From contig OY725495.1 of assembly GCA_963281255.1 (NCBI GenBank), forward strand, positions 4,650,001 through 4,714,000: a stretch of DNA of 64,000 nt, in the 5' to 3' direction. The stretch comes from Aphrocallistes beatrix. Taxonomy: Eukaryota > Porifera > Hexactinellida > Sceptrulophora > Aphrocallistidae. The first letter of the stretch is position 1. The number at the start of each line of letters is the position of its first letter. Positions 26,701-57,220 of this stretch are shown here, piece by piece. The notes below the pieces were generated by a model, which did no database searches, was not told where the DNA came from, and saw only the letters and a list, made by a program, of their open reading frames with translations. A program made the position numbers and the translations under genes.

Positions 26701-29700
26701 ATCGTTGCATATCTAAACAAGTGTATAGCATAGAATGAATGGATGAACAGGAAAATGAGATTATACACATGTATAAAGTTCTCAAATCATTAAATATCCA
26801 ACCCCCTTCCCCCCTATACAGTCGAATCCGCTTAATCGGGACACTTTTGGAAGGACCGGAATAGCTCTCACACATATAAGCTAATACAAAATATTTTCGG
26901 TTAATAGTGCAGTGTTCTCCGCTTAATCGGGGAAAAATGTATTCTGACCGATGTGACCCTATTAAGCGAAGTCAACTGTAAATATATCAACAATCCCTTA
27001 ATAAATTTAAAAATAATCCAATTTTAATGTTTCCCCTAAATCAGTGGCGGGAAACCTTAAATAATCCTTAAGCGAGCCCGAAAATCTGTCAGTTCTAGCC
27101 ACTGTCACAATACTATGGCCGCGTGGAACTGACAGATTTAAAAAATGATAAAGGAAAAATAACTAAGTAAATACATTGAATCGTTAGGCGCAATTATATG
27201 ATGATAGTGGAAAATATATTTATACAAAAATTAGGCAGGTCCAAATACAGTCTACTCCGCTTAATAGGGTCACATCGGTCAGAGGACATTTTGCCCTGAT
27301 TAAGCAGAGAACCCTATTAACCGAAAATATTTTGTATTAGCTTCTATGTGTGAGAGCTATTCCGGTCCTGCCAAAAGTGGTCCGATTAAGCAGTGACTCT
27401 ATTAAGCGGAGTTGACTGTATATAGTTTTTGAAGAGGTCGTAGAGTATGAAATTTAGTCTCGTAGGTCCCAGGTTTCCCACTCCTCCCTAACTATTTCAA
27501 AGTGTGAACTCTTATGACCCTAAAACAACCTTTCCGAACTGTGGCATCACAGTGGTATGTGGAGTCAACATCTCATTTTAAGTAAAAATATATCAAAATT
27601 TAAATATTATTAGAAGTTAGTCAAGTTCTATTTAATTTTTTAAAATTCGCAGTCAATTTGATTGTTAAAATAAGATATATACAGAGCAAGATTTAATAGA
27701 AAAATAAACAACTACAAAATTAAAATATAAATAAATAATAAAATCTAATATAAGTTTAATTTATGATTAGAAAAATCAACACAAATAATAATATTATCTT
27801 GAGTTACTGCTATTCCTGTAGGTTTATAATCACACTCAATACTATGAATTAACAGACCTTCTAATGTATATATTTGTATTATTTTACCTGACCAATCACT
27901 AATTAGAATATTATTAAACTTATCTAAACATAGAAATATCCTAACAGTTCCAACTCTCAAGTTTATAATACTATTCAGTAAATCTCCTAACTTAGAAAAT
28001 ATATGTATATTATGATGTTTACTATTATCAGCTACAAACACTTTATTATTATTTACTTTAACATATTGTGGCTTTACTAACTTCTTATTTCCTAATTCTC
28101 TAATTAATTTAAGATCTAAGTTTAACACTACTATTCTATTATTATCACAATCTGCTACAAACACTTCATTATTATCTACTGTTATACCTAATGGAAAATT
28201 AAGTTTTAACTCACTCTTACATTCTAATTTATAGTTTTGTCTTTTATATTTTATGACTTTATTCAGTTGAAAATCAGTTACAAACAACCAATCATTGTAT
28301 AGAGCTATGGAGTAAGGCCAACCAAACTCTCCCTTGCCAATTTCTTTATGAACTGACCCTCCAAGCTAATTAATTGAATTCTACTGTTCGACATGTCAGC
28401 TACGAATATATTTCCTTTCCCATCTATCGCTACACCACATGGACTATCTAGTTCTACTCTACCCTTCCCTTGCTTGCCTATAGACCTAATAGGATGTACT
28501 TTTGTGCGGTATATGGGAGCTACATCTTGTAGAGATCCAAACTTCTCTATCTTTTGTATAAGATCCTCCAGGAGAGATGCGTCGAAGTGAGGAAATGGGA
28601 TAGGAGTTGGTTGTTGAAATTCTTCTTTTTCTTTTTTCACTTTTTCGATATAACCTTCTTGTATGTTGACGATGCGATTCTGCTCAATAGTTGCATCTTG
28701 TATCTTTGCAATCAGCTGATCCAGATCCTTCATCTGTTTCTGTCTCGTCTCCTCTTTGCTGAAGTAGTTAGCACTCATCTCATGCAGCTCTACCAGCAGC
28801 TGGTCCCTCCTCTCTTCCAGTTTCTTCATCAGGGAGTTGAAGGTGGATTTGATGAGGAGTTCTGCTCTTTCAAATGGGTTGGAATGGAGGGAAGGTTCGC
28901 TATCAGGGAATCTTGAAGCCATTGGTTGTTTCTTTGTTTTATTTGAGTTAATAATGAATTGTTTACTGAGAGTATATTTATATCAGATGAGAAGTGTGTT
29001 GGTATCATGAGCTGATAGTGTGTGTTGTGTCGTAGAGAGAGGGAGAGACTGATTAGAGAATGACTGGTAGGTTTGTGGCTAGTTTCCTTGAAGCAGGAGT
29101 GTGCCGTGTTTCAGAAAGGATATCTCCTTGTGGAACTTTATCTACACTCAGAATTTACTTTCAATGTTCTCTACCATAATTTCATATTTTGACTATATTT
29201 AGAATAAATTAATGTTTGAAAAATTATGCAAATTTATAAGATCACATTCTCTTTAATCTTAGTCAACGATTAGAACAGTTGCATGCCATATTTACTCAAA
29301 TGTATTCCTGGACCATGGATGTTGTTATGACATGAGTCTTATAGACAGATTAATTCAATTATTATTTACGTCTTGCTCTTGACCTAACTACTAAATTTAT
29401 AGTTGAAAGAGTGAAAAGTTTGAGAAAAGCATTCACTGCAAACTGTGGCATGCAAGCCTATATTAATGGTACATGGAGGTATCTATTATCTTTACTCAAA
29501 TGTATTCCTGGACCATGGATATCAAAAATTATGTCTTAATACTCAAAGAAAATCAGAATTAGAACCTTAATTAATAGTAAGAAGCTACACCAACAAAAGA
29601 TAAATTATCAATCAGAGAACATTAAAATTATGACTCTAAAGTATCAGTAAACAACAATAACAACTAACCTACTAAACGCCCCATAATAGGAATGCTGTCT

Positions 29701-32700
29701 GTAAATAGGGTTAATCACTCCAGGAGCATTCAAGTTTTGTGGCTGTCCAGTGGGATGGCTAGAGGTACCACTGAGATTCATCAGATACTGAACTACGCTC
29801 TGGAAACTGACTCCCATGGAATCTCCTTGTTTTGAGGAGTGATGCTTGGATGGGAACGAAGTGTGTTTGTAGAATGAAAGATTGATTGGGTACAATTCTA
29901 ACTCAATCTTCTGTGTGTCTTTATTTAGATACGCCTAAAGGAAAGAAAATATCTTAAAATACAGTCGAAATCGTTTTATTAGTCCATTTGACTGAAAAGT
30001 AAAAGTTAAAAAACCGATAGACAAAGATATCTGAATATTTTACAATGAAATTACATGAATAAAACAGTTTATACTACAAAGATTTGGTAAAAAAACGATT
30101 TCAACTGTATCTCCAGTGGTTGAGTTATGGCAATACTCATTCGGAATCTAGTCACCAATTGTTGAGACCAGGGTTTCATCCAACTTTCCAAGGTCATACG
30201 CCTAAATGGACGTCACCATTTTTCTACGCGCCTAGACTCATTTTGATATAGCATTTTGATATATGTTTTATGCTACGCGCCTAATTCATACGCCTAATTA
30301 GGATCCATGGGATCAAATACGCGCCTCTAGGCGCGCCCAGTACGCCTGAATGAAAGCCTGGTTGAGACAATTTTGATTGAAAATATGGAATTTTGATTCT
30401 CAAAATATCTAGTCACAGTTGAGGCTATATTTAGTTTCAGTTTCAGTTTCAGTTCCAATTCCTTACAATTCGAGGCAGAGACTGGGTTCCGTCGTACCAA
30501 GAGGAGAGTGCCTTCCACACGGGTTCGGGCAGAGTCACGTAGTGAGTGTTCTCCTCCAAACTCGGAGTTCTCTTCAGAATCCCTCCTTCTCCCGTCAAGA
30601 CCGAGCAAGCCTAGGAATGGAATGTTAGTGCAAGAGATGTAAGGAATGTTAAGAATGTGCTATTCATTATGATTCCCTTTAGACAACAAAGTAACAAACA
30701 CAGTTGACTCAATCGGGTTAATCTCTTAATCGGGCCACTTTTGACAGGACCGGAATAGCTCTCACACATAGAAGCTAATACAAAATATTGGTTAATAGGG
30801 TTATCCGCTTAATCGGGGCAAAATGTCTTCTGACCGATGTGACCCTATTAAGCGGAGTCAACTGTATAATACTAGATTATCCGATTTGCCCAATCAATTA
30901 TTTGATTTCAAAATGTTACTAACCAATCAAACAATTAAAATCAGTTTATCAGTCAATCATTCGAAATAAACGATTCTATTATCCAATCTGTTTCCTTTCA
31001 AAAGTACAGTCGACTCCGCTTTATAGGATCAGATCGGTCAGAGGACATTTTGGCCCGATTAAGCGGAGAACTCTATTAACCAAAAATATTTTGTATTAGC
31101 TTCTATGTGTGAGAGCTATTCCAAAATATTTTTTGGGCCTATTAAACAGAGTTGATTGTAAATAATTTACATTGCCATCAGCTCTTACCTTATTCCTAGC
31201 ATCGAGTTGACAGAGATATCTATTCTCAATGTGTCCAGGTCCCTTGTACCTTCTCTCCTCGTTGTCTTCAGGAATCTCATAAGGTTCATACTCATCTAGA
31301 CAGTAGCCTCTATCTGTGTGTTTAGCTTTCTTAGATTTGTGGAGTTTGTAGAAGTTGTGCTTGGAATGTTTGTTGGAGTAAGGAACGTGAGTCGATGTGG
31401 GATCGTATGTCACAAATCTCTGCCAACTGACCCACCATTCATTCGCAAGCAGATACTTCATGTCGCCTTCTTTCAGCTTCTCTCGCATTCCCCTCAGCAT
31501 ATATCCTCTAAAACAGAATTGAGTGATTCTAGATCTGTTCTCAGTAAACGTGTCAAGTTAGCATGGATAGTGTGTATCTTCAGTTATTGTGTTTTAGTGC
31601 AGATCCTAGTATAGGAGATGTCTTATGTCATGATCGGGGTGCAACGTCTGTCCGTATGCCCGCTCTTGGAAATTCTATACCAAACTGCACGAAATTTGGG
31701 CCATATATTCCTTCTATGGTAGGGGTTTTAACCTCAAATCATGAATTTTTTCACACCTTTTTTAAAAAAGGTGTCAAAATGTATGACCAATCAGAATCCA
31801 AGAATTTAGTATTACAGTTGGCTTTCATTTTATTGACTAATAGGATTATACCTAACTCAATCCATGTAAATGAATTACATTAAACTCTCTAAACTTGAAA
31901 TCTGATTGGGAGCTGCACTATCAGTCTATTGACTGACAAGCAATGTTCACAAGGCGACGAAAAACGATGGATAAAAATTTAGACGTCCTTCCGTCTGCTC
32001 GCTCCTGGAGATTCCTTGGACCAAACTACACGGAATTTGGACCATATATTCCTTGTATGGTCGAAATTTGAACCTGGGTCCAAATTCACATTTTTCACAC
32101 CTTTTCATAAAAGGTGTCAAATTCAGATGTTCATATCTCGTTAAATTATATGCAAACATAAGAGAGAGTATGTTTGTCCATGTCCAGTTTTCAGAAATCC
32201 ATAAACAATTAGGTTTTGTTAGGAATTCTTCAGTTGAGATTATTGTCCAATAATATATGTGGGTAGAGATACTCCTAACCTGACATAACTACGCTTAGCT
32301 GCTTTAGGAATGTGACAGGTATCAACTTACTTAATAACATCCCTCTCATCCACTCTAGACTGAGGCCGGAGTCCGAATACAATATGACAGATCTGGAATA
32401 TAACTTTGAGCAACTCTTCTAGGAGAGAACGATCTTGAGAGCCCCAGTGGATGAACTCAGTCAGTGAGAGCTAGACATTCAATACAACCATAACGACAGG
32501 ATTGTTCAGGTTGAGACCTTGGTGGTTACAGGAATTTCGAGGTGGGGCTGTTGCGTAGAATTCTGAGATTATCCGTAGAATCTTTCTTCCGTTTACTCAG
32601 ATTACCTTATGGTCCAACCGTTTCATCATATATATACAGTATGATAAATATCGCCACTAAATAGTGTCACGCGGCACAATTTAGTGGCGGTGGATATCAA

Positions 32701-33340
32701 GTAACGATGAAACTGATTGAACCACAAGGCCAATTGAGTAGGCGAAACAAAAAAAGGTTCCAGGATTTCTTTCCTTCGGCCCCGCCTCGCCCTGGGTTTG
32801 GTAAATTCCTGCGACCCCTGAGTGAATCTAGGACCTTAATATTTCCTCTAAGCATTCCTGACAATTTTCAGGAATTTATAAATGAACTTCCATCATAATT
32901 TAGACCTGGATTCCATCTAGCGACATTATCAGAGAGTAACTCACGAATTCTTTGGAGCTAAGTTCGTCTTTTTCTTTGAATGAATCTAAAATCTTCTTTG
33001 TCTCCTGATCAAAATCGACTTCCTAAAGAGACACAAATGTATAAAGTCAGTCGACGCATCGAGAGTTCACATCTAGAATAACATAGAGGTGTGAAATTTA
33101 TGCATATTGATTTATAAGTATCCAATTTTAAATATAATCACAATTATGCAGATACAGAGAGCTTATCAACACCTTTATTGACAATATAGTAAAAGGTATG
33201 AAGATACATATACAGTCAAAATCATATTTTTTGTCCAATGATTTCATAGCGGAGGCGAAATAAAATGGAGAAAATAACCTGACTATTTCGTAATGGAGCT
33301 ACTACGAATAATTAAACAATGTTTACAGAGGCCTAACAAT

Positions 33341-33376
<36 letters not shown>

Positions 33377-36300
33377 AACAACGTTGGACAAAATCTGAAG
33401 TCGACTCCGCTTAATTGGGTCACATCGGTCAGAGGACATTTTTCCCCGATTAAGCGGAGAACCCTATTAACCGAAAATATTTTGTATTAGCTTCTATGTG
33501 TGAGAGCTATTCCGATCCTGCCAAAAGTGACCCGATTAAGCTGAGTCGACTGTATTCCTTTCCAACCACTCGCGTGGCTATATTCATTGAAAAGTCTAAT
33601 ACAGTCAACTCCGCTTAATCGGGACAAGTCTCCAGGAACGGAATGGTTCCCATACATAGAAGCTAATACTAAATTTAATCGGTTAATTGGGAACTCCGCT
33701 TAACGGGACAAAATAGGACTAAAGTGTCCCGATTAAGCGGAGTCACTGTATGTGAATATTATCTTTCCCTCAAGGGGTGAAATGGAGCTTAACATCTCCC
33801 CTGGTGATATTCTAGGCTATTAGGAATGCATTTATTCTATAATTAGAGTTTAAGACAGTGACCTTATTATCTGGATTGGCTTTATTCTCTGCTTGAATTC
33901 TGTACAAAATCTTCAGAGCATTCTTCAACTCAAGTTTACTCAGTTTTCCATCTTTATCTTTGTCAAACAATGTAAACATCGCTAAAAATACAGCATAAAT
34001 ATAAATATACACATTTTCACACCTCTGTTTCAGCATATGAATAATTACTTTCTATTCTATCGTTGTTAGGGAAGCGACAAAGGAATGCAATGCCTTTAGC
34101 CATCTCTACAATATCCAGAATTCCATCTTTATTCCGATCCAACCAAAGGAAAAGTTCTAAAAATAAATTCAACAATAATAACATAAAGAAAGGTGTGAAG
34201 AAGTTCTATAAATAGAATTCTCACCTTCTGACAGTTCGATGGGTAGAGGCGGTGAAGTGAGAGAACAGAAGAGATTTCGATCGAATTTAGAATGCTCAGA
34301 TTTGCTTTTGAGAAGATAGTATTTCTTCTCGAAATCCCAGACATCCTTCTTACTTACTATAAATAGAAATAAGCTAAATATAGTAACACATCTGTATATA
34401 ATTGTATGTACCAATCATTAACAACTCTCTCCACTCTCTAATCTCGTCGTGTGACACCATTTAGTTCTGTTGTGTAGATCTGTGAGATTATTATACTACA
34501 TAACCATGGATGGTTTTGTAGTGTAGAATTATGAGATTATCCGCAGAATCATGAGATTTAGTTTCGCTTACTCAAATGGTATTGTGGTTCAAACTGTTTC
34601 ATCGTACCTTGGTAACCATCGCGACACAATTCAGTAGTACGCGACACAATTTACAATGTTAAAACTCCATATGGACCATGGATGCAAAATAAATTCATAA
34701 TAATCTCACGGATCTACTCAAGATCTACTCAAGGACGTATATCCACTATTTTCTCTCCATTAATTTGAATGAAGTTTCACAGTAAATATTCCTGGCTTCT
34801 ATTTACCCAATCATTCGTGCGGTTATATTCATCCAAATTCTCTATTAAATCTGAATTATTTACACCTGCTGGTAATCGAGGATATACAGATTAGTTATTT
34901 GTATACTACAGTGGAGTCTCACAAAATGGACATCACGAAAAGCGGACAACTCCTCTACAACGGATAAACCTCGTGGAATGTATTGAATTTACCAAATTTA
35001 TATACTGTCAAGATCGCTTATTGTGAACCACCAGGGGACCAAAAAATCTGTTCATAATAGAGATACTTCATATTAAGCGAACTTCATTCAATACAAATCC
35101 TATCTAAAAATGAAATTGGGACCAGCAGGTTAGTTCATAATAAACGAATGTTCATAATAAACGACCCTGACTGTACGTATGTAATAGTTAAGGAATATCT
35201 GAGAAGACATCTCTCTACAACGGACAAAGCCATGTCCCCAAAGTGTCCGATATTCAGAGACTCCATATTACAGTCAGGGTCGCTTAATATGAACATTCGT
35301 TTATTATGAACTAACCTCCTGGTCCCAATTTCATTTTTAGATAGGATTTGTATTGAATCAAGTTCGCTTAATGTGAAGTATCTCTATTATGAACAGATTT
35401 TTGGTCCCCTGGTGGTTCACAATAAGCGACCCTGACTGTATAATAAATTATCATTTCAAACTGAATTCCTTTCTTCCAAGCGACTCATCACTCACGTTTA
35501 CAGAAGTCAGCTAGAGTTTCGTGGAATGTGGGTACGTAGATGTCGTCTGAAAGGTTGATAGACCTCAGTTCCTTCTTCAAGAGCCAGTTTGTGAAATCTG
35601 TGATACTCCGGTTCTCCTTGATCCATCTCTTAAAGTCCGTGAGACCCATTGGAAGTTCCTAAAATTAGAATACAAGAAAGTTTAAGAGACCACAATGTAA
35701 ACATTCCATACAACCACTGGTGTAACTAACGAATTCATTCTTGAAGTCTTCTGGTAACGGAGACGTGAAAGTAAAGTTCCAAAGTCTAATCATGTCCTCA
35801 ACTGTAATCTGGCTATGTCCCCCAGATATTACGGCGAATAGAACTAGAGGTGTGAAAATGTTAATACAGTCGACTCTGTTTAATAAGGTCACTGTTTAAT
35901 CGGGGCACTTTTGGCAGGACCGGAATAGCTCTCACACATAGAAAGCTAATACAAAATATTTTCGGTTAATAGGGTTCTCCGCTTAATCGGGAAAAATGTC
36001 CTCTGACCGATGTGACCCTATTAAGCGGAGTCGACTGTATTCACAAGCATGAAAATTGATTGGTTGATTTGAAAGTAAATATAAACAAGGTTACATTGAT
36101 ATTAGGTGTGAAAATATATGAAATTAGAAGTAAACAAACGTACATCTAACTTTTTCGTCTATAGTTCCATGGCTGAGAAGCACTAAACCACAGAAAAGAT
36201 CTTTGAATCCAATTCCTTTATTGGGGTGACCGCCAAATGCGAGGTAGAGTTCCTAAGTAAACACAAACAAACATAAAAGTAAACAACATCTCGCTTGTAA

Positions 36301-39633: not shown

Positions 39634-39756
39634 ACAGTCAAGGTCGCTTAATATGAACATTCGTTTATTATGAACTAACCTCCTGGTCCCAATTTCATTT
39701 TTTAGATAGGATTTGTATTGAATCAAGTTCGCTTAATATGAAGTATCTCTATTATG
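39634..39756. repeat. TIR element family C, truncated
   Basis: CAGTCAAGGTCGCTTAATAT, then stops at GAAGTATCTCTATTATG where tandem unit 1 begins. Confidence 0.8.
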
Positions 39757-41662: not shown

Positions 41663-42910
41663 CTAATACAAGTTTAATTTACCATTCTTATAATCAACAC
41701 AAATAATAATATTATCTTGAGTCACTGCAATTCCTGTAGGTCTATAATCACACTCAATACTATGAATTAACAGACCTTCTAATGTGTATATTTGTATTAT
41801 TTGACCTGAAAAATCACTAATTAGAATATTATTAAACTTATCTAAACATAGAAATATATCACCAGTTCCAACTCTCAAGTTTATAATACTATTCAGTAAA
41901 TATCCTGACTTATAAAATATATGTACATTATGATGTTTACTATTATCAGTAACAAACACTTTATTATTATTTATTTTAACATCTAGTGGCTTTACTAACT
42001 TCTTATTTCCTAATTCTCTAATAAATTTAAGATCTAAGTTTAACATTACTATTCTATTATTATAACGATCTGCTACAAACACTTCATTATTATCTACTGT
42101 TATACCTAATGGACAATTAAGTTCTAACTCACTCTTACATTCTAATTTATAGTTTTGTGTTTTATATTTTAGGACTCTTTGCTGAAATGAATCAGTTACA
42201 AACAGCCAATCATTGTATAGAGCTATGGAGCGAGGACTCTTTAACTCTCCCTTACCAAATTCTCTAATTGAATGACCCTTCAAGCTAACTAATATAATTC
42301 TACTGTTCCCTGTGTTAGCTATGAATATATTCCCTTTCGCATCTATCACTATACCAAATGGCTCGTGTAGTTGTGCCTTACCTCTCCCATACGTGCATAT
42401 AGACCTAATAGAACTTAGTTTGGAGTTGTATATTTCAGTTGAATAGTTTTGTTCTACTCTACCCATCCCTTCCTTGCCTATAGACCTGATAGTGTCTAGT
42501 TTGGATTTGTATAAGTCTTGTTCTCCAAACCTCTCTATCTGATCTCGTAGCTCGTCAAGATGAGATGTGTCGAAGCGAGGAGGCGTTGGGATGGGATTCT
42601 GGTGTTCGTATTCTTCTCTCTGTGCCGTCCAGTCTTTAATCTTCTCTTCGTCAACTTTTGAAAAGGGGCGATCAGCGTTCTTCTCTTTCATCTCTCTGAT
42701 CTGTTTTTCAAGGCTTTCGAGATATTCGGTTCGCTCTGTTTTTATGAGGTTACATTCATTTCTTATCTCGTATATCTGCTCAATCAGCTGATCCCTCTTC
42801 TCTATCAGTTGCTGTATCAGAGAGTTGAAGGTCTTCCTTACTGATATTTCAACAGTATCCAATGATTCAGGTTCAAGTTCTGGTATTTCCTGTGGATATT
42901 TTGCTGCCAT
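41663..42910 (-). CDS. Coiled-coil NHL beta-propeller protein, copy 2 (415 aa)
   Basis: TRIM-NHL-like protein without RING or B-box. Residues 1 to about 130 form a Glu/Lys-rich coiled coil (VRKTFNSLIQQLIEKRDQL). The rest is a propeller with repeats of the form GI[16 protein letters not shown]. It shares its N-terminal type (MAAKYPQ...ELEPESLDTVEISV) with copy 3, not copies 1 and 4, while the propeller is close to all. It alone carries an internal duplication of about 23 residues ahead of the first blade (two YxSKLxxIRSI segments). Variable positions in this copy: blade-1 NTG, TD followed by SFQQR, AD followed by RY, SD followed by F, DY followed by R. Single exon, AT-rich toward the 3' end. 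Ligand unknown. Confidence 0.85.
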   Translation of the reverse strand: MAAKYPQEIPELEPESLDTVEISVRKTFNSLIQQLIEKRDQLIEQIYEIRNECNLIKTERTEYLESLEKQIREMKEKNADRPFSKVDEEKIKDWTAQREEYEHQNPIPTPPRFDTSHLDELRDQIERFGEQDLYKSKLDTIRSIGKEGMGRVEQNYSTEIYNSKLSSIRSICTYGRGKAQLHEPFGIVIDAKGNIFIANTGNSRIILVSLKGHSIREFGKGELKSPRSIALYNDWLFVTDSFQQRVLKYKTQNYKLECKSELELNCPLGITVDNNEVFVADRYNNRIVMLNLDLKFIRELGNKKLVKPLDVKINNNKVFVTDNSKHHNVHIFYKSGYLLNSIINLRVGTGDIFLCLDKFNNILISDFSGQIIQIYTLEGLLIHSIECDYRPTGIAVTQDNIIICVDYKNGKLNLY

Positions 42911-43513: not shown

Positions 43514-43574
43514 CACACTCGGAAGGTAGCACAGTGTAATATTATTATTTTGTAGGAAAATAATGAGAGAAATT

Positions 43575-45745: not shown

Positions 45746-45897
45746 AAATGTGACAATGACGTCATATTCCATGATGAGTGGACATTTTTCTCTGAGCTCA
45801 GAACTTACTGGAGCCATAGCCAAAAGACTCCCACATGCCAAAAATTAGCTTTCTACGCCCGGCAGTTTCTTCAATCAATTCGTTACATATATATATG

Positions 45898-46575: not shown

Positions 46576-46635
46576 ATACACAAACAAACAATAATCGAGT
46601 TTTAATAGTAAGGATATATATATATAATAAAATCA

Positions 46636-46835
46636 AGGTGTGAAAAAATGATAATATAAACATGACATAGAACTTAGATTCAAATATAAATCTCCATATA
46701 AGGAATATTTGTTCAAAATTAGTGCAATTTGATTCTGTAGATTTCCCATGAACGTGTAGACGGCAGGGTTTCCGCGTGAATGGGGATCCCCATACCCATG
46801 GGATGGGAATAGGAATGGGAATGGGAATGCTAGAC
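46636..46835. repeat. Family X fragment and family G fragment
   Basis: AGGTGTGAAAAAATGATAAT, ATCTCCATATAAGGAATATT (as at 59222-59350), then GGGATGGGAATAGGAATGGG. Confidence 0.65.
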
Positions 46836-47270
46836 AGCTGTCAACATAAATCACACTACTTCATGACTAAACTCGTGATAGTTAAGACACCAAATATGCA
46901 TTCTAACAAGCGATTTTCATTATTCACGTACTACTTGTAGTTTCTATACCAGTAAGAAAATAGACTCACGAATTACAAGTTTCTGAATTCATTCCTAATA
47001 CAGAGTTTATTATTAGTGATTTAGACCTGATTAACTCTAATCTTCTCAAAAGAAGGAACTCTCCTCCACACGCTAGGACAACAAGGCCACGAATTGGAAA
47101 TACCTCTAACCTTAATCTCAAATATTTGGTTGTACCCTGGAGATGATAATTATAATTTTAATATTTTCTTGTTTATAATTTATATTGAGTGAATATTTGT
47201 TGTTATTGTTGTTTACTAGTAAATTATTTATAATTTGTTTACGATGTTTCTGATAAATAAACGTAACACG

Positions 47271-47950
47271 GCTAATTTATATGTAGGAATTCGAACTGTT
47301 TCCATTTATGCAGCATCTCCCTTCTTTGTTTTACGCGGTTATAGAGATAGACATACAATGTTTCTATGAAATTCAACATTGTAACATTCAAAAGATTGAA
47401 GAAGGAATGTCTATGCTGTTTGGACTTGAAATGGGCTCACACTAGAAAATACTTCACTTGAGAATTTTTGAACAAAAAATGGAATTCTTACTAGGAACTG
47501 GATTAGACTCCTGGACCGGAGAGTTGTAATAATTGTTAGTTCAACTGATCTGTAGACTAGTCGACCTGACCGTTACTAGTGGGGTTTCGTCCCATTTCAG
47601 GGACTCATCAGGCGGTGACCCTCGACCCCATTATGAACTGTGAACCACCTTCGGATTGTTCACGCTTCCTTATTGCCACAGTCTTTGGCTCCTGCAGCTT
47701 CCCGGTAGTCCTTGGCTCTCCGCGGCCACGATACTACAAGCATATAGACCAAACGATTATTAGAACAACAGTAAAACAAAATAATATAAGAATTGGTACT
47801 GCAGTAGAATCGGCTTTTCCATACACCTGTTTGTGCCCTATTTTCTTGTATGAAGTTTCCCAGTAATCCTATTTTACGCGTTCTAACCATTTGTTTTCCA
47901 ATCACGAAAATATGCCTTCGCGATTTTCTCGAGTTTTTCCTCAATTTAGT
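47271..47950. other. Unit 1-2 junction, possible retroelement remnant around a ribozyme
   Basis: No supported gene. 47560-47760 is more GC-rich than its surroundings and includes a hammerhead core (listed separately). The adjoining - strand frame (AKDYREAAGAKDCGNKEA) resembles no family I can name. Confidence 0.4.
47580..47630 (-). ncRNA. Hammerhead ribozyme, type III topology
   Basis: On the - strand: stem III 5' arm TGGGGT, cleavage C, a short stem I hairpin of 12 nt (GAGG-GTCA-CCGC, one mismatch), the invariant CTGATGA, stem II GTCCC / GGGAC closed over TGAAAT, GAA, then the stem III 3' arm ACCCCA. Both invariant boxes (CUGAUGA and GAAA), the G-C pair closing stem II and the U before the cleavage C are present. 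Stems II (5 bp) and III (6 bp) are perfect. In animals such ribozymes usually belong to retroelements (Penelope-like or retrozymes). No tandem partner is visible here. Confidence 0.8.
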
Positions 47951-48321
47951 CAGTCTGTTTAGCTTGGTAGCACCAGAGAACTGCCACAGCTACAATCACT
48001 AATCACTAAATCCTTCCGAAAACTGATAATTCTCCAAATACAAATTCTTTTTCTTCGTTATTCATGGTTTAGTGTCGCATTATACATTACTGAGTATGTA
48101 GTTGCATTTATAAAAGCAACATCGACTTCTTCCTTATCCATGGTTAGTGCTCAATGCTCAAATAAATATTCAACTCTTCCTTGCTATTCTTCCGTGCATC
48201 AAGGAAGCAAATTTATTATTATTTAGATACTGTGAATAACGCACACTCACTGGAAGATTCAAACAATAGTTAGAATTATAATAGATCAGCAACAACAATT
48301 TACGACACAATACGACACTCT

Positions 48322-48585
48322 TCACTTATTCTTGTCTGCCTCCATTGCTTGCTTCAGAGTTTTCTTCTTGAGCTTGTCTAGCTTTCTTTTCTGTCTAACT
48401 CTGTCATAGTGGTCCTCTAGCTGGCAGTGGTCCAGTGCCTCTTTCTCCTCGTGGCAGTACCAAGGCAGAAAGAATGTCTCCCTGCGACACTGGATATATG
48501 GCACGAAGAAGTGGACACAGTGGTCTCGATTGGGCAGTGGGATGTAGAGTCTTTCTAGATCTTCCATTGAGTACTTGTCTGCCAT
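48322..48585 (-). CDS. NDUFB7: NDUFB7-like complex I subunit, copy b (87 aa)
   Basis: Differs from copy a by EEKEA for EEREA and ADKNK for ADKIK at the end. The four cysteines of the twin CX9C pair (CVHFFVPYIQC and CHEEKEALDHC) are kept, as is the 3' flank GACACAATACGACACTCTTC. It lies downstream of NHL copy 3 with the same spacing as in the other units. Confidence 0.82.
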   Translation of the reverse strand: MADKYSMEDLERLYIPLPNRDHCVHFFVPYIQCRRETFFLPWYCHEEKEALDHCQLEDHYDRVRQKRKLDKLKKKTLKQAMEADKNK

Positions 48586-48658
48586 TATTCCGCTAGTTGA
48601 AAGCTAAAGTTGTAGCAAGAGTAATTATGTAAAGCGCATATACAGTAAATCTGATATA

Positions 48659-48884
48659 CCGCATTTCCCTGAATAAGCGCCGGGGCTCGAATAAGCGTCG
48701 GACGCCGGGGCATTTTAGTTCTCAGAACATCACACAAGTGCTTTTTGAAACACTACATTATCCTTTTTCAATAGAACTAACATTCTCAGTTGTGGCAAAA
48801 ATAAAAGTGCCAGTCAATGTAGTAAACAAAAAAAAGAGCGCCGGGTCAAAATAGCGAATGAAAAAAATAAGCGCCGGTTTGACT
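48659..48884. repeat. TIR element family H, truncated
   Basis: CCGCATTTCCCTGAATAAGC ... AAATAAGCGCCGGTTTGAC. Confidence 0.8.
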
Positions 48885-48918
48885 TTTTTAAATGGGTGGT
48901 TAGCATGTATGTTACGTA

Positions 48919-49060
48919 CAGTAGAACTCCCTTATTAGCAATATTGCTCCATTTGCAACCAATCTTCAGGTCCCAGGTGAAGATTTTTTGTTAATTCTGT
49001 TCCCGTATTAGCAACCATTTTATGAGCAAAACTCGAGTTTCTAATAAGCGAATTCCACTG
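48919..49060. repeat. TIR element family K
   Basis: CAGTAGAACTCCCTTATTAG ... AATAAGCGAATTCCACTG flanked by TA. Confidence 0.9.
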
Positions 49061-49285
49061 TAGTTACTTCAAAAAGACTAAAAAGCTATGACGGACAGAT
49101 GTCTATTTATATATTGAACAGTGATCCTGTGAAGTATGTGCCACACCCGTGATAGAACACTACCACCGTCCCTGATTCGATTTTGTAAAGTTATTCTATA
49201 ATTAGAGTTTAAACAAGAAACAAATGTAATAGTTTATTTATTTAATATTATAATCATACAAATAAAAAAAAAAAGGAAATATAAT

Positions 49286-50464
49286 CTAATACAAGTTTAA
49301 TTTACTATTATCATTATTAGCACAAATAATAATATTATCTTGAGTTACTGCTATTCCCATAGGACTATAATCACACTCAATACTATGAATTAACAGACCT
49401 TCTAATGTGTATATTTGTATTGTTTTACCTGAACAATCACTAATTAGAATATTATTAAACTTATCTAAACATGGAAATATATCATCAGTTCCACCTCTCA
49501 AGTTTATAATACTATTCAGTAAATCTCCTAACTTAGAAAATACATGTACATTATGATGTTTACTTTTATCAGCTACAAACACTTTATTATTATTTACTTT
49601 AACATCTTTTGGTCTTAATAACTTATTATTTCCTAATTCTCTAATAAATTTTAGATCTAAGCTTAACACTACTATTCTATTATTAAGACTATCTGCTACA
49701 AACACTTCATTATTATCTACTGTTATACCTAATGGACATTTAAGTTTTAACTCACTCTTACATTCCAATTTATAGTTTTGTGTTGTATATTTTAGGACTT
49801 TATGCAGTTTATAATCAGTTACAAACAACCAATCATTGTATAGAGCTATGGAGTGAGGCCAACTTAACTCTCCCTTACCAAATTCTCTAATGAACTGACC
49901 CTCCAAGCTAACTAACTGAATTCTACTGTTCCCACCGTCAGCTATGAATATATTTCCTTTCCCATCTAACTCTACACCACGTGGATTATTTAGCTCACCC
50001 TCCCCTTTCCCTTCCTTACCTATAGTGCTGATAGGACTTAGTTTGGAGGTGTATATTTCAGCCGAGCAGTTTAGTTCTCCAAACCTCTCTATCTGATCTC
50101 GTAGGTCATCAAGATGAGATGTGTCGAGTTGAGGAGGAGGAGGAATGGGATTTGGGTGTTCGCATTCTTCTCTCTGTGCCCTCCAGTATTTAATCGTCTG
50201 TTCGTCTATTTTTGAAAAGGGGAGATCAGCGTTCTTCTCTTGCATCTCTCTGATCTGTTTTTCAAGGCTTTCGAGATATTCGGTTCGCTCTGTTTCTTTG
50301 AGGTTATATTCATTTCTTTTCTCGCAAATCTGTTTAATCAGTTGGTCCTTCTTCTCTATCAGTTGCTGTATCAGAGAGTTGAATGTCTTCCTTACTGATA
50401 TTTCAACAGTATCCAATGATTCAGGTTCAAGTTCTAGCATTCTCTGTGGATACTTTGCTGCCAT
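49286..50464 (-). CDS. Coiled-coil NHL beta-propeller protein, copy 3 (392 aa)
   Basis: Same architecture as copy 2 and the same N-terminal type (MAAKYPQRMLELEPESLDTV), so these two share a coiled-coil lineage. The propeller begins near residue 160 (GVELDGKGNIFIADGGNSRI) and ends SKLNLY. Variable positions in this copy: GG after the blade-1 Asp, YKLHK after VTD, SL after VAD, K after VAD in the KHH blade, C after ISD, S before P-M-G, and a last blade reading NNDNS where the others keep a VD. Single exon with an intact frame. The loss of that last Asp is unique among the copies. Confidence 0.85.
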   Translation of the reverse strand: MAAKYPQRMLELEPESLDTVEISVRKTFNSLIQQLIEKKDQLIKQICEKRNEYNLKETERTEYLESLEKQIREMQEKNADLPFSKIDEQTIKYWRAQREECEHPNPIPPPPQLDTSHLDDLRDQIERFGELNCSAEIYTSKLSPISTIGKEGKGEGELNNPRGVELDGKGNIFIADGGNSRIQLVSLEGQFIREFGKGELSWPHSIALYNDWLFVTDYKLHKVLKYTTQNYKLECKSELKLKCPLGITVDNNEVFVADSLNNRIVVLSLDLKFIRELGNNKLLRPKDVKVNNNKVFVADKSKHHNVHVFSKLGDLLNSIINLRGGTDDIFPCLDKFNNILISDCSGKTIQIYTLEGLLIHSIECDYSPMGIAVTQDNIIICANNDNSKLNLY

Positions 50465-50705
50465 CTTTATTCGTACGGTTGTTTGATAAAATTGTTGAAT
50501 TGTTTACTGAGAGTATATTTATATCAGATGAGAAGTGTGTTGGTATCATGAGCTGATAGTGTGTGTTGTGTTGTAGTGAGAGGGAGAGACTGATTAGAGA
50601 ATGACTGGTAGGTTTGTGGCTAGTTTCCTTGAAGCAGGAGTGTGTCATGTTTCTGAAAGGATATCTTGTGCAACTTGCTTTTGCACGAACCGAAATTACT
50701 TTCAA
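50465..50705 (-). promoter_or_regulatory. Conserved upstream region of NHL copy 3
   Basis: As in the other copies: TATA-like block on the gene strand, then the GAGAGGGAGAGACTGATTAG stretch (+ strand reading). Conservation fades near 50660. Confidence 0.65.
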
Positions 50706-52000
50706 TGTTCTCTTCTTTAAGCTAGATTTGACTATATTTGGGAGAAAATGGTGGAAAGTTGAATTGCTAATTATGCAAATTCAATGAACATTCAAGGCAC
50801 CTTACTCTAACACAGTGTTAGATGTAATTTGCATTGATGGATTTTTATTGGTTAATTTTGTTTAATTCATCTATTCACTTGAATTTTACTATAATTCTTC
50901 TTTCAGGAAATGTCCTATTCAGCCATTACCATCACACTTTTCTGTACAGCGCTGTGTGGTATGAGACTCTTTGAGAGGATGTATTACATTAACTATGTTC
51001 CAATGTTTCTTTTCAGACAGTTTAGATACTTTGACTGATTCGAGATAAAAACTAAAAAGAAACTTGGTTTTAGTTCAAAACTGAGTTTCAACCTACGAAA
51101 ATTCTGTTTAGTTTGTAATTACAATCTGAATTTCAATGACTTAGTTTCAAACAAATTTTATGCTTAGTTTTGACTTAAAGTTAGTCTAAACTTATTATTA
51201 ACAAACTAAGTTTGAATTGTTAAGTTTGAGAAGTTTAGCAAATAAGATTATCTCCTCTTTCCACATACTCTTGTCCTACTATTGCTTTGTTTTGAAACAA
51301 GTGTAGATAGAAGCATGAGTATTATTGAAATACTTAACTTTGTAAAAAGCTTCCTTCCACACTTTTCTTATATTTCGCCTTCAAAATGTTGACTTTAATC
51401 TCTCATTCATTCTAAATGAAATAAAATGCCACTCAACCACCTTCTCACGAAACTGAACTCCGAGACTATATTGCAAGATAGATTAATGTTAATGTAACGT
51501 ACGATTTATAGTCAAAACAGTTTGATTTTTATGGTTCTGAATCTTCTTTCATCAAAATACGACGTATCAGAAAATTTTGCATTTCCAAAGACGTTTATTC
51601 ATCCACATTGCAATGCTACAGCTGCTGTGATCAATTTAACATAACAACTCAACTGGGAAGATTAAGTTAAATAACGTCTACCCTACAGACCAGCATTGAT
51701 AAGAAGATTTCACCCCAAAACGTAAGAAATGCCAATAGAATGACTGTAGTCTTGAGCAACTCTCTGAACATTTCCTTGCAATTCTTTCAATATTAGTTAT
51801 TGGGTTTGGTCATCTTCCTAAAATTCCCTGAACACCTCAAGATATTGATGAGACCATCTACATCACTGATACGAGTAAAGCTCAAAATTTCCTCTGCTAT
51901 AAACTAGCCGGATTTACAGTATCGATGATAACCATTTCTCTATTTTATAATACGTTTCAATGATGCATGGTACAAATATAACTATATGCTACACCTAAGC
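50706..52000. other. Non-coding part of unit 2
   Basis: AT-rich. 50880-51000 and 51030-51300 match units 1 and 3; beyond that I see no gene and no clear element. Confidence 0.5.
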
Positions 52001-52299
52001 CAGTGTTTCCCAACCTTTCCCTTTATAATGCCCCCTAAGGTGCTTGCAACTTTCATAAGGCCCATACTTCATTATTCACTAAGCTAGTTTAATTATTGAT
52101 TATCATATGTTTACAAAGATTCTAAGAATGTACTTGTAGTAATGTAAGTTGGAACATGTGGTCCTTGACATTGGTGTGATTTCGCAATGTTTACATGTGT
52201 TACCTTACATTCTCATTTAACGCCCCCTTCCTCCACAGCGCCCCCTGAGGCAAGCAAACGCCCCCTGGGGGGCGGTAGAGCCCCCGTTGGGAACCGCTG
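52001..52299. mobile_element. Short hAT-type element, TSD ACCTAAGC
   Basis: 299 bp: CAGTGTTTCCCAACCTTTCC ... CCCGTTGGGAACCGCTG, with exact 8-bp flanks ACCTAAGC at 51993-52000 and 52300-52307. GCGCCCCCTG-type words recur near the right end. Confidence 0.93.
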
Positions 52300-53169
52300 A
52301 CCTAAGCTAACAGAATTGCGGAAAAGACTTCTTTACAAAAGTTAATACAGTTTTTATATTCTATATCCTGGCTTGTTAATTCATTTCTGTCTCCTCTCTT
52401 GATATATTCCTATGTTTTGTTGTTGCAGTTATTTAAACCAATCAATTGGTATTTCTACAAATCTATAATTATTGCGTAGTAAGCTAGAACAACTACGTAA
52501 TAGAAACTGTGACATTAGTGCTTCGTGGTTTAATAAGTGTAGTGTTATTAAAATTAGTTTGTAACTGTCATGCAATGATGACAATAATCAAGTCGCATCA
52601 ATGAAGTGAGAGCTCACTGATGTTGCAGAATTCAGCATAATTATCATTGAACATGATGAAGCTTAATAAAAGGTCATTATATAACGCAGCTCGTGTAGGA
52701 TAATGACCTCCCAGAGTATCCATGGTTCCTTATTTAAGTGGGGTCAATATCTCATGCAGTTGTACTAAGGAGATACCATCCAGTTTTACAATGGTGCACT
52801 ATAGCCTATTATTCTAGATAATATATTGCCCGAGGCAATGTGAAACAATATTCTACACAATATTGTGTGTGACAAGGTATGGCGATTCTTGTACGAGATT
52901 TGAAATCTACACAATTAAATAACCCAGAATTGAAACCCCGTCTAATTGGAACCAGTCTACAGAATGGAGTTTGGGAAGGAATTACACTAAACATATCGGC
53001 CTCATGTTAAAGGGATGAATGATGCTACAGGTGAGTAGAATGCTCATTCTCTGCGTAGAGGACAAATTGACTTTGACATTAAATAACCCACACTCACTGG
53101 ATTATTCGTACATTAACTATAATTACAATAGATCAGTAACAACAATTTACGACACAATACGACACAATA

Positions 53170-54514
53170 CAGGGTGTCTCAAAAGTTTTTTCCGGTTGTA
53201 CTAATATCCACAACTTGTAAACTATAGTATAGAAATCTTATATTATTTGCCAATATAATCTCCTCTAAGTTGGATACAAGAATTAATTCGAGCAGGCATC
53301 CCTGAGATTAAATTCTCCAAAATCGACGGTGTGAGTCCATTCCAGATATTTTTCAGGTAATTAGCGAGCTCTGACAAATTGGTGGCTGGTATCTTCTTGT
53401 CAAGCTCTGCTTGAATAATCGCCCAAAGATTTTCAATGGGATTTAAATCTGGTGAATTGCTAGGCCAAATTCCTTTAGCCCAGTACCCTGGAATATTATT
53501 GGAAAGCCAGGTTTGCGTCTTTTTGGCGGTATGGGCAGGAGCCCCATCCTGCATAAAAATGGCCTCGGACATCAAGCGACACATTTTCCGTTCTGTCACT
53601 GGGCCTGTAGTTTTCCTTCTCTTCAAGGTAGAAAGGCAGGACTTCTCCAAAATTTCTTTTATATAGTATTCTGCATTTACAGATTGTTTAGGAGGAAGAA
53701 CATGGAGTTCCGAGATCCCAGTGCCACTCATCATCCCCCAGACCATGATTTTAGGCGGGAATTTAACTGTCTGAATAGGCTCAATGTTTCGCGCATTCTG
53801 ACTCCAAACCCGATCGTTCTGCCGATTTGTTGGATGGAAAAGTTCAAAAGAACTCTCGTCACTAAAAAGAACCCTTTTCCAATCCTGTTGATCCCAAAAT
53901 TTATGACTAAGGCAGAATTGTAGCCTCTGTTCCTTCTGTTTTTCCGACAATTTTGGTTGCGAAGGTCTTTGTATGGCTTTGCTCCGATGGTATTCCTTAA
54001 ATAGCGATGTATAGTGTCTTTACTAACTCTCTGTGAATTTTTCGAAACGATACAAGCAAGTTTTCGCGTAGACTGCCAACGTTTGCCTAGAGATTTTCTA
54101 ATAATTATTTTAGGAACGCGAGAAAGCCGTGTTGGACGCCCAGACCGAGGTTTGTCCGCCATGGATTTGCCTGATAGAATCTTCGTTTTCCAATTCCAAA
54201 CAGTCTTAACTGTAACCCCTAAGGTCTGAGCAATCTGTTTCTGGCTAATACCAGATTCTAACATACCGATTGCACGTAATCTATGACCAATTCTGGAATT
54301 TTGGACATCCATTATATAAACTTTATATTGATGATGAAGTGAGGTCAAGAAAATCACAAGCTGCTAACAAATACAATTGATTTGTATTTCATTCAAACAT
54401 TATGACCGCTCAGGTTAAATATGATCAAAAAAGGGCGAGTTTAAATGCAAGTACTGATGTAAAAGGAATATTTTGATTAATTATAAAACCGGAAAAAACT
54501 TTTGAGACACCCTG
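53170..54514 (-). mobile_element. Tc1-type transposon with intact ends
   Basis: 1345 bp, near full size for Tc1 elements. The TIRs CAGGGTGTCTCAAAAGTTTT and AAAACTTTTGAGACACCCTG match over about 28 bp and are flanked by TA (53168-53169, 54515-54516). It sits at the unit 2-3 boundary, inside a fragment of the NDUFB7-like 3' flank (ACAATTTACGACACAATACG). Transposase remnant listed separately. Confidence 0.95.
53243..54357 (-). pseudogene. Tc1-like transposase with one apparent frameshift
   Basis: The N-terminal part (54357 to about 53950) has paired helix-turn-helix motifs (QKQIAQTLGVTVKTVWNWK) and GRPTRLS. The C-terminal part, in another frame from 53950 to 53243, has the DDE triad: VLFSDESSF, IFMQDGAPAHTA and NSPDLNPIENLW (D34E type). 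Only one frame change, around 53940-53960, separates them, and no other stop interrupts the frame. Together with the near-perfect ends this points to recent activity. Confidence 0.9.
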
Positions 54515-55000
54515 TACAATCATGGACAATATACTACAAGGATATATTTGTCACCTCACTTAGCGTCAGTATGCTTAGCATGACACCACTTATTGAAATT
54601 GAAACAGACACAGCTATAACCACTATTACTGTTTATTCCCCAAATATTAATTCTTCTTCTTCCTTATCCATGGTTCGTACTCAATGCTCAACTCACTATT
54701 AGGACATTCAAAAAGTTTTAATCTCATATCTGTATCTCAAATGATAGTGAAAATAAGATATTTTCGATTTGTCCATTGTATTCCTTTGGGGATCAGCTTC
54801 CAATTTGTAAATTGATTTATTTTAAGACGAATTAGAAAAATTTACAGAAGCAACTTCTCCTTGATAATCTTATGTGCATCAAGGGAGCAAGATTTTCGTA
54901 CTTTGATACTATAAATAACCCACAATAACTGGAAGATTCAGACAATAGTTAGAATTATAATAGATCAGTAACAACAATTTACGACACAATACGACACTCT

Positions 55001-55264
55001 TCACTTATTCTTGTCTGCCTCCATTGCCTGCTTCAGAGTTTTCTTCTTGAGCTTGTCTATCTTTCTTTTCTGTCTAACTCTGTCATAGTGGTCCTCTAGC
55101 TGGCAGTGGTCCAGTGCCTCTCTCTCCTCGTGGCAGTACCAAGGCAGAAAGAATGTCTCCCTGCGACACTGGATATATGGCACGAAGAAGTGGACACAGT
55201 GGTCTCGATTGGGCAGTGGGATGTAGAGTCTTTCTAGATCTTCCATTGAGTACTTGTCTGCCAT
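55001..55264 (-). CDS. NDUFB7: NDUFB7-like complex I subunit, copy c (87 aa)
   Basis: Differs from copy a by KRKIDK for KRKLDK and ADKNK for ADKIK. The twin CX9C cysteines are kept. All three copies have intact frames, the same length and almost no amino-acid change, in contrast to the flanking DNA, which carries unit-specific insertions. That suggests either purifying selection on each copy or recent homogenisation. Downstream of NHL copy 4 in the same order as in units 1 and 2. Confidence 0.82.
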   Translation of the reverse strand: MADKYSMEDLERLYIPLPNRDHCVHFFVPYIQCRRETFFLPWYCHEEREALDHCQLEDHYDRVRQKRKIDKLKKKTLKQAMEADKNK

Positions 55265-55394
55265 TATTCCGCTAGTTGAAAGCTAAAGTTGTAGCAAGAG
55301 TAATTATGTAAAGCGCATATACAGTAAATCTGATATAACTCTACAATATCAGTCCACTGTAATGTCAGGAATAATGTGTCGTAAATCTGATATA

Positions 55395-55632
55395 CCGCAT
55401 TTCCCTGAATAAGCGCCGGGGCTCGAATAAGCGTCGGACGCCGGGGCATTTTAGTTCTCAGAACATCACACAAGTGCCTTTTGAAACACTACATTATCCT
55501 TTTTCAATAGAACTAACATTCTCAGTTGTGGCAAAAATAAAAGTGCCAGTCAATGTAGTAAACAAAAAAAGAGCGCCGGGTCAAAATAGCGAATGAAAAA
55601 AATAAGCGCCGGGGGTTGAATAAGCGCCGGTT
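55395..55632. repeat. TIR element family H, truncated
   Basis: CCGCATTTCCCTGAATAAGC ... AATAAGCGCCGGTTTGAC. Confidence 0.8.
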
Positions 55633-55671
55633 TGACTTTTCTAAATGGGTGGTTCGCATGTATGTTACGTA

Positions 55672-55813
55672 CAGTGGAACTCCCTTATTAGCAATATTGC
55701 TCTATTTGCAACCAATCTTCAGGTCCCAGGTGAAGATTTTTTGTTAATTCTGTTCCCGTATTAGCAACCATTTTATGAGCAAAACTCGAGTTTCTAATAA
55801 GCGAATTCCACTG
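55672..55813. repeat. TIR element family K
   Basis: CAGTGGAACTCCCTTATTAG ... AATAAGCGAATTCCACTG followed by TA. Confidence 0.9.
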
Positions 55814-56041
55814 TAGTTACTTCCAAAAGACTAAAAAGCTATGGAGGACAGATGTCTATTTATATATTGAACAGTGATCCTGTGAAGTATGTGCCACACC
55901 CGTGATAGAACACTACCACCGTCCCTGATTAGATTTTGAAGTTATTCTATAATTAGAGTATAAATAAGAAACAAATGTAATAGTTTATTTATTTAATAAT
56001 ATAATCACAAAAACAAATAAATAAAAAAAAGGAAATATAAT

Positions 56042-57220
56042 CTAATACAAGTTTAATCTACCATTTAAATAATCAACACAAATAATAATATTATCTTGAG
56101 TTACTGCTATTCCTGTAGGATTATAATCACACTCAATACTATGAATTAACAGACCTTCTAATGTGTATATTTGTATTATTTTACCTGACTTATCACTAAT
56201 TAGAATATTATTAAACTTATCTAAACATAGAAATATAAGACCAGTTCCATCTCTCAAGTTTATAATACTATTCAGTAAATCTCCTAACTTAGAAAATACA
56301 TGTACATTATGATGTTTACTACTATCAGCTACAAACACTTTATTATTATTTACTTTAACATCACTTGGATTTACTAACTTCTTATTTCCTATTTCTCTAA
56401 TAAATTTAAGATCTAAGCTTAACACTGCTAGTCTATTATTCAAACAATCTGCTACAAACACTTCATTATTATCTACTGTTATACCTAATGGACGATTAAG
56501 TTCTAACTCACTCTTACATTCTAATTTATAGTTTTGTGTTTTATATTTTAGGATTTTATTCAGATTATAATCAGTTACAAACAACCAATCATTGTATAGA
56601 GCTATGGAGTAAGGACTACCTAACTCTCCCTTACCAAATTCTCTAATAAACTGACCCTCCAAGTTAACTAACTGAATTCTATTGTTCAACAGGTCAGCTA
56701 TGAATATATTACCTTTCCCATATATTGCTACACCATATGGACCATTTAGTTTCACTCTACCCATCCCTTCCTTGCCTATAGACCTAATTGGATGTAGTTT
56801 CGTGCGGTGTATGGGAGCTATATCTTGTAGAGATCCAAACTTCTCTATCTTTTGTAGTAGATCCTCCAGGAGAGATGTGTCGAAGTGGGGAAGTGGGATT
56901 GGAGTTGGTTGTTGAAATTGTTCCAGCTCATTTTTCATCTTTTGAATTTGTTGTTCTTGTAAGTCAACGATGCGATTCTGCTCAATAGTCGCCTCTTGAA
57001 TCTTTGCAATCAGCTGATCCAGATCTTTCATCTGTTTCTGTTTCGTTTCCTCTTTGCTGAAGTAGTTAGCACTCATCTCATGCAGCTCTACCAGCAGCTG
57101 GTCCCTCCTCTCTTCCAGTTTCTTCGTCAGGGAGTTGAAGGTGGATTTGATGAGGAGTTCTGCTCTTTCAAATGGGTTGGAATGGAGGGAAGGTTCACTC
57201 TCAGGGAATCTTGAAGCCAT
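56042..57220 (-). CDS. Coiled-coil NHL beta-propeller protein, copy 4 (392 aa)
   Basis: Shares its N-terminal coiled coil with copy 1 ([37 protein letters not shown]) and its propeller with all copies. No RING, B-box, signal peptide or membrane segment is visible. Variable positions: LL after the blade-1 Asp, YNLNK after VTD, CL after VAD, S after VAD in the KHH blade, K after ISD, N before P-T-G, YL in the last blade. The surrounding codons are almost the same at silent positions as in copies 1-3. Single exon and intact frame. The family may be cytoplasmic; that is an inference from the absence of targeting signals. Confidence 0.87.
   Translation of the reverse strand: MASRFPESEPSLHSNPFERAELLIKSTFNSLTKKLEERRDQLLVELHEMSANYFSKEETKQKQMKDLDQLIAKIQEATIEQNRIVDLQEQQIQKMKNELEQFQQPTPIPLPHFDTSLLEDLLQKIEKFGSLQDIAPIHRTKLHPIRSIGKEGMGRVKLNGPYGVAIYGKGNIFIADLLNNRIQLVNLEGQFIREFGKGELGSPYSIALYNDWLFVTDYNLNKILKYKTQNYKLECKSELELNRPLGITVDNNEVFVADCLNNRLAVLSLDLKFIREIGNKKLVNPSDVKVNNNKVFVADSSKHHNVHVFSKLGDLLNSIINLRDGTGLIFLCLDKFNNILISDKSGKIIQIYTLEGLLIHSIECDYNPTGIAVTQDNIIICVDYLNGRLNLY

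Follow-up and report, generated by a model that had tools for sequence, protein, structure and literature searches.

In TRIM5alpha and the fish finTRIM proteins, a coiled coil is joined to a diversified C-terminal binding domain that is under pathogen-driven selection; this domain is B30.2/SPRY, instead of the NHL propeller considered here, and RING and B-box domains are present. In the WD40 propeller of the HNWD genes of Podospora anserina (het-d, het-e and het-r), positive selection acts on pairs of positions that flank a conserved residue, 7 and 9 in the d-a loop and 25 and 27 in the b-c turn, all on the upper face (PMC1805685). The TRIM-NHL proteins LIN41/TRIM71 and Brat are encoded by single conserved genes and carry a six-bladed NHL propeller after a coiled coil (PMC5908797); in DrLIN41, the RNA contacts are on the upper surface, at residues 564, 581, 611, 628, 629, 658, 676, 707, 752 and 770 (human 608 to 814; Kumari et al. 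2018, PMC5908797). In sponges, the NLR repertoires are lineage-specific expansions of intracellular candidate immune genes (PMC12909245), Aphrocallistes vastus has expansions of single-exon tandem AIG1 genes (PMC10282587), and the syncytial tissue of glass sponges has been described (PMC10280926). Here we describe a family of genes encoding a coiled coil followed by an NHL propeller in Aphrocallistes beatrix, four copies of which lie in a window of 64,000 nucleotides (contig OY725495.1, positions 4,650,001 to 4,714,000; assembly GCA_963281255.1). An earlier note on this window had proposed a diversified recognition family; the diversification it described is confirmed, strongly patterned and larger than first described.

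The ORFs (open reading frames) and their translations place the four copies on the minus strand of the window, between positions 27745 and 57220 (Table 1). Copies 2 to 4 are intronless single ORFs of 392 to 415 amino acids, in which about 140 N-terminal residues, predicted to form a coiled coil, are followed by six NHL blades marked by six Pro/Asp motifs. The NHL family PF01436 exceeded the Pfam cut-off in these three copies and, for copy 1, in its C-terminal piece. Copy 2 has Asn in place of the anchor Asp in its blade 1, as does copy 3 in its last blade. In the propeller, copies 2 and 3 share 77% and 81% of their amino acids with copy 4, blades 3 to 6 being identical at 91–92% of nucleotides, whereas their coiled coils share only 28% and 32% (55% at the nucleotide level). 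The near-identical scaffold described in the earlier note is therefore true of the propeller only. All the variable residue strings it listed were present in the translations, and at the ISD site the four copies carry TGG, TTT, TGT or AAG, the preceding six codons being base-identical in all of them.

Position-specific variability was measured in three families: F1, the focal family (18 genes); F2, from an array on contig C6 (20 genes, all 20 regions), about 34% identical to the focal genes; and F3, from an array on contig C3 (17 genes, from 17 of 20 regions, L108-L110 of other arrays being left out). F1 derives from 28 regions (L010-L037): L017, L024 and L034 contained no ORF of 250 amino acids, and two partial regions, L025 and L035, were excluded. 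Adding the intact copies 2 to 4 of the window brought the number to 26 genes, 19 of which were kept at 72% or more propeller identity; L022 was then dropped for its divergent C-terminus. Regions L038-L049 (12) entered none of the family tests, copy 1 was excluded from all codon tests, and copy 4 served as the reference for codon numbering. Among the 19 focal genes, replacement hot spots recur in each blade: a conserved Pro has two ahead of it and one behind it, and a conserved Asp is followed by two more. The same pattern is found in the C6 array. These positions, five per blade, sit in the strand d-a and b-c loops. We defined them by motif as a class of 30 codons, although codons 283, 300, 301, 330, 345 and 366 are less variable; the class was fixed after the variability of F1 and F2 had been seen, and F3 was tested without prior inspection.

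In F1, the proportions of replacement (pN) and silent (pS) differences are 0.423 and 0.236 at class codons, a replacement to silent ratio (dN/dS) of 2.19, against 0.077, 0.153 and 0.48 at the other 216 codons. In F2, dN/dS is 1.88 at the class (pN 0.393) and 0.35 elsewhere (pS 0.173). The class pN was matched in 0/20000 random codon draws in each of F1, F2 and F3, which bears out the proposal that replacement is focused on equivalent positions of the blades. Within each family, all the faces made up by these positions are distinct (18/18, 20/20 and 17/17 in F1, F2 and F3, respectively).

These positions change by replacement beyond the neutral expectation in F1 and F2. Among class codons that differ by a single base between nearest disjoint gene pairs, F1 has 85 replacement and 7 silent differences (neutral expectation 4.74:1; p 0.0057) and F2 has 88 and 5 (4.64:1; p 0.00041). 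None of the multi-base class codon differences is synonymous (0 of 97, 98 and 55 in F1, F2 and F3). In a grid codon model with a tree per blade, 26 codons in F1, 31 in F2 and 4 in F3 reached a posterior of at least 0.9 for beta>alpha; the called codons are in the d-a and b-c loops in 26/26, 30/31 and 4/4 cases, these loops accounting for 108 of the 246–266 codons. The Pro codon that stands between hypervariable codons has a pS of 0.075, 0.073 and 0.078 in F1, F2 and F3, below that of the remaining codons, which argues against a purely local mutation hotspot. Purifying selection acts on the coiled coils (dN/dS 0.32, 0.35 and 0.67). The earlier note had named dN/dS above 1 at the variable sites and near 0 elsewhere as support: in F1 and F2 the ratio is above 1 at the class and below 0.5 at the other codons, and in F3 the class value is only 1.03. 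Neither scattered variable codons nor silent divergence equal to replacement divergence, the two outcomes that would have spoken against the proposal, appeared in F1 or F2.

A protein search with L001, a family member on contig C8, found 992 proteins with E no higher than 0.001; of these, the best 120 were taken, 118 aligned and 94 used. Most of the best 120 of the 992 are about 60–62% identical to L001 and absent from the matches listed for this genome, which comprise a few at 57–64% and then fall to about 40%. In the 94 proteins, the class positions have a mean entropy of 2.02 bits, compared with 0.50 for the propeller outside the class and 0.68 for the coiled coil (0/20000 draws); 90/94 faces are distinct, and 26/30 of the most variable positions are in the two loops. 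A separate expansion in another genome thus varies at the same places. Taken together, these data make a diversified recognition repertoire well supported in two families, and supported in pattern in two more sets.

The variable positions could be placed on the propeller by comparison with LIN41. In an alignment with the TRIM71 sequence, 10/10 of the mapped RNA contacts fall at P-1, P+1, D+1 or D+2, that is, at variable positions. This alignment assigns the variable positions to the upper, ligand-binding face, as the earlier note had suggested: the selected codons belong to loops that, in LIN41, make up the ligand face, and their placement on a single face follows from the contact alignment instead of from coordinates. 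The overlap shows place and not the identity of the ligand; it is not specific for RNA, because propellers in general bind their ligands on this face.

The copies have also exchanged parts. Copy 4 carries a group-A coiled coil, and its 5' and 3' flanks and its propeller are group-B-like, as in copies 2 and 3, which have group-B coiled coils. Between group-B genes and copy 4, nucleotide identity is about 50% inside the coiled-coil module and at least 90% around it, clear evidence of coiled-coil module exchange between copies; of the gene conversion put forward in the earlier note, it is this exchange that is clear. The upstream stretch from -180 to -60 is 92–98% identical in 14/16 family members compared. 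A second assembly seems to come from the same species; of its 45 proteins, 24 could be paired with genes here at 88% identity or more, 14 being identical and 10 different. Of the propeller differences between assemblies, which may be assembly artefacts, 16/58 are at class positions (12% expected by codon share), and the differences are clumped in blades 4–5 of several cluster genes; they may reflect either allelic variants bearing conversion tracts or errors of polishing between copies that are nearly the same.

Six protein searches of the genome (100.5 Mb, 28 contigs), with fragments merged at 1-kb resolution, gave at least 419 distinct places of the NHL family on 19 contigs; this is a lower bound on places and not a count of intact genes, some places being fragments or carrying internal stops. 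A neighbour lies within 15 kb for 309/419 of them, and seven further places of the focal subfamily are just outside the window, at C9:4613-4649 kb. At C12:4250346-4265104, five NHL loci are spaced by exactly 3,380 bases, four of them with equal scores, a very recent tandem amplification. NACHT matches number at least 94 in the same genome, many of them lying in open frames of about 1,100–1,200 codons, and AIG1 matches at least 91, so large intracellular candidate immune families accompany the NHL family. Among named full-length relatives of the wider family, the nearest are two proteins from Oopsacas minuta: P0127 is 47% identical to L001, and P0252 is annotated as 'Tripartite motif-containing protein 2'. 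For close relatives, a search of a genome contig collection returned a single weak archaeal match only.

Table 1. Features of the NHL genes of the window; codons are numbered on copy 4.
Feature	Position	Strand	Description
NHL copy 1	27745..28922	-	coiled coil and six blades; frameshift near 28290-28305; ORFs 28305-28922 and 27745-28287, with NHL repeats in both pieces
NHL copy 2	41663..42910	-	intact ORF of 415 amino acids; group-B coiled coil; extra stretch ahead of blade 1
NHL copy 3	49286..50464	-	intact ORF of 392 amino acids; group-B coiled coil
NHL copy 4	56042..57220	-	intact ORF of 392 amino acids; group-A coiled coil; TRIM71 NHL domain as the best solved relative
Copy 4, codons 1-140	56801..57220	-	predicted coiled-coil region; dN/dS 0.32 within group A
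Copy 4, codons 146-392	56045..56785	-	NHL propeller
Copy 4, upstream region	57221..57460	-	contains a GATATAAATATAC (TATA-like) stretch, also given as a TATAAATA stretch
Hypervariable class			codons 159,160,162; 177,178; 201,202,204; 218,219; 242,243,245; 259,260; 283,284,286; 300,301; 327,328,330; 344,345; 366,367,369; 384,385

Copy 1 has an unbroken near-relative in the second assembly (P0006, compared by eye). Between NHL copies 3 and 4, pieces of a Tc1/mariner-like transposase with DDE_3 and HTH domains are found at 53243-54357 (-), and a further DDE_3 piece is at 18753-19220. The window also contains two inverted single-exon genes of the fucosyltransferase family (PF00852; 408–409 amino acids) at 16265-17491 (-) and 20539-21768 (+). 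Weak DUSP and ubiquitin-hydrolase (UCH) matches below cut-off, at 31096-31500 (-) and 23266-23769 (-), are possibly pieces of a deubiquitinase gene. A bacterial promoter scan and a tRNA scan of parts of the window gave nothing useful.

The reading that we favour, with a probability of roughly 55%, is that these genes form a germline-encoded intracellular recognition repertoire that works like the HNWD WD40 propellers of Podospora, by means of a coiled coil and a diversified NHL face. Several observations weigh against it. In F3, dN/dS is only 1.03 at the class (0.37 elsewhere; class pN 0.358) because silent change is raised there too: class pS is 0.349 vs 0.155 (0/20000 draws), one-base class differences number 70 replacement and 14 silent, close to the 4.88 expected (ratio 1.03, p 0.54), and only 4/30 class codons reach a posterior of 0.9. 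Class pS is also somewhat raised in F1 (274/20000 draws) and slightly in F2 (1123/20000), and high pS values occur at the anchor Asp in F2 (0.417) and F3 (0.293). This raised silent change would fit variants that predate the homogenised sequence around them, or a degree of local mutability. The grid model that called the selected codons is FUBAR-like, run with our own script and with kappa fixed at 2.5, and is not a published program. Within the propeller, a run test at non-class sites gave significant pairs in 2/153 (F1), 0/190 (F2) and 1/136 (F3) cases, the two F1 pairs (L011-L027 and L010-L027) being on different contigs; conversion at the level of blades, the other part of the earlier proposal, is thus weakly supported. 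The differences between assemblies may themselves be polishing artefacts.

The F3 value near 1 is what would be seen if, after duplication, constraint on the ligand face was relaxed and the face drifted while the fold was kept, and some copies are indeed broken (copy 1, and genome matches with internal stops). However, dN/dS is about 2 in F1 and F2, replacement exceeds the neutral expectation in their nearest pairs, class pN is above non-class pS in all three families (0.423 vs 0.153, 0.393 vs 0.173 and 0.358 vs 0.155), and most copies inspected have open frames, so that we regard relaxed constraint as very improbable. Slightly more improbable still is targeted mutation, in which a process of the kind found in the diversity-generating retroelements of prokaryotes would rewrite the class codons with little need for selection. 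Multi-base differences at class codons are frequent in nearest pairs (97/270, 98/299 and 55/240 in F1, F2 and F3), transversions are in excess at the class in F1 (122 transitions and 181 transversions vs 299 and 201 elsewhere), and class third bases lean to T: the share of N, D, Y, H, C, F and S codons ending in T is 76% at variable sites vs 41% elsewhere in F2, 86 vs 81 in F1 and 64 vs 58 in F3. Selection for replacement alone also raises transversions, however, the intervening Pro codon is conserved at silent sites, and there is no adenine-only signature, each of the three codon positions showing all four bases; a template repeat or a reverse transcriptase was not searched for.

Two further alternatives accept the diversified face and differ as to what it binds. 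The upper face of each propeller may bind a different RNA, as LIN41 and Brat do, with mRNA regulation or the restriction of viruses or transposons, for example, as its role. The coincidence of the variable positions with the LIN41/TRIM71 contacts points this way, as does the fact that the best solved relatives are TRIM71 NHL domains, and the faces of F3 have a mildly basic character (K+R 15.3%, D+E 4.9%, mean net charge +3.1). Those of F1 and F2 are not basic (K+R 10.6% and 8.3%; mean net charge +1.1 and -0.2), whereas 8/10 of the mapped LIN41 contacts are Arg or Lys, and the same face carries the ligands of propellers generally. Y, S, N, F and W are abundant on the faces of the three families (Y/F/W/H share 24.7–26.1%). 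As the F1 and F2 faces are aromatic and near neutral, protein ligands seem likelier than RNA; face chemistry leans to protein or mixed ligands in these families, and an RNA-binding repertoire, although rather unlikely, would best suit F3. Alternatively, the family may serve a non-immune role, binding many environmental or metabolic ligands, or acting in partner pairing during development or the building of the syncytium. Nothing in the analysis ties the NHL family to immunity, and diversification of a ligand face fits other many-ligand families too. Near-identical neighbours that differ at these positions and faces that are all distinct are, however, more typical of conflict or recognition, and no signal peptide was apparent by eye in the ORFs inspected, which argues against environmental sensing outside the cell. 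We hold this non-immune role to be improbable, and function as an immune or self-recognition receptor to be plausible.

In a germline recognition repertoire, the intracellular proteins encoded at the 419 or more places would combine a constant N-terminal coiled coil with a six-bladed NHL propeller. Per blade, two or three residues around the conserved Pro, at the end of the d-a loop, and two after the conserved Asp, in the b-c loop, vary from copy to copy, giving about 30 variable positions that would lie together on the upper, ligand-binding face. Selection would favour replacement at these positions and conserve the scaffold, and recombination among copies would spread modules and homogenise the remainder. 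Each copy most likely binds a ligand of its own by its variable face, probably a protein or a peptide, and the shared coiled coil may signal or assemble; the role would be defence against intruders or discrimination between self and non-self.

This family would thus work like HNWD, to judge from an intracellular beta-propeller with paired selected positions in the d-a loop and the b-c turn on an otherwise near-identical background, and from exchange within the family, here of the coiled-coil module; such paired positive selection is found in F1 and F2, with only 4 codons in F3. It would not be a member of that family: the Pfam results of the window copies include neither NACHT nor WD40, and HNWD proteins have a WD40 propeller with a NACHT NTPase, in place of NHL with a coiled coil. 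HNWD also comprises about ten genes instead of at least 419 places, and its repeats are near-identical within one gene, whereas here a single gene has differing blades and it is from gene to gene that the sequence is homogeneous; allorecognition is demonstrated for HNWD and would be a candidate role here. With the TRIM-NHL proteins (PMC5908797), the family shares a six-bladed propeller after a coiled coil, here a predicted one, and RNA-contact positions that are variable here; it differs in being an expanded, diversified repertoire, and in that two of its three sets of faces are not basic. In Pfam searches, the window copies gave no RING or B-box match with an E of 1 or less, the TRIM coiled coil (PF25600, TRIM_CC) matched only copy 3 among them, at a weak E of 0.4, and none of the 24 B-box matches of the genome coincides in its coordinates with a place on the list of 419. 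The family resembles the TRIM-NHL proteins or derives from them; by domain content it is not one of them. One NHL protein, at L085:137-1591, has by eye a B-box-like N-terminus in which Pfam reports no B-box, a possible link to canonical TRIM-NHL genes. The sponge NLR and AIG1 families are likewise lineage-specific intracellular candidate immune expansions, and NACHT and AIG1 are also large in this genome; their domains are different, and loop-focused diversifying selection is not mentioned in the consulted portions of PMC12909245 and PMC10282587. The term 'nhl' has a count of 0 in both glass-sponge genome papers (PMC10280926 and PMC10282587), and among open-licence PMC papers we found none on a hypervariable NHL propeller repertoire under positive selection.

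A bolder extension, which we consider distinctly unlikely, is that syncytial glass sponges police their shared cytoplasm with an anticipatory germline repertoire in which hundreds of NHL-propeller binders each offer about 30 selectable positions, an independent animal counterpart of fungal heterokaryon incompatibility built on another propeller fold. If the recognition repertoire is real, the NHL propeller would join the few scaffolds that carry large germline-diversified recognition repertoires, in an early-branching, syncytial animal lineage. As the variable positions coincide with the known ligand contacts of a solved family, ligands could be sought directly, and a near-constant scaffold with about 30 naturally variable positions would be a natural library on how propellers gain new specificity. 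Cytoplasmic discrimination between self and non-self in syncytial animals would then become a testable question.

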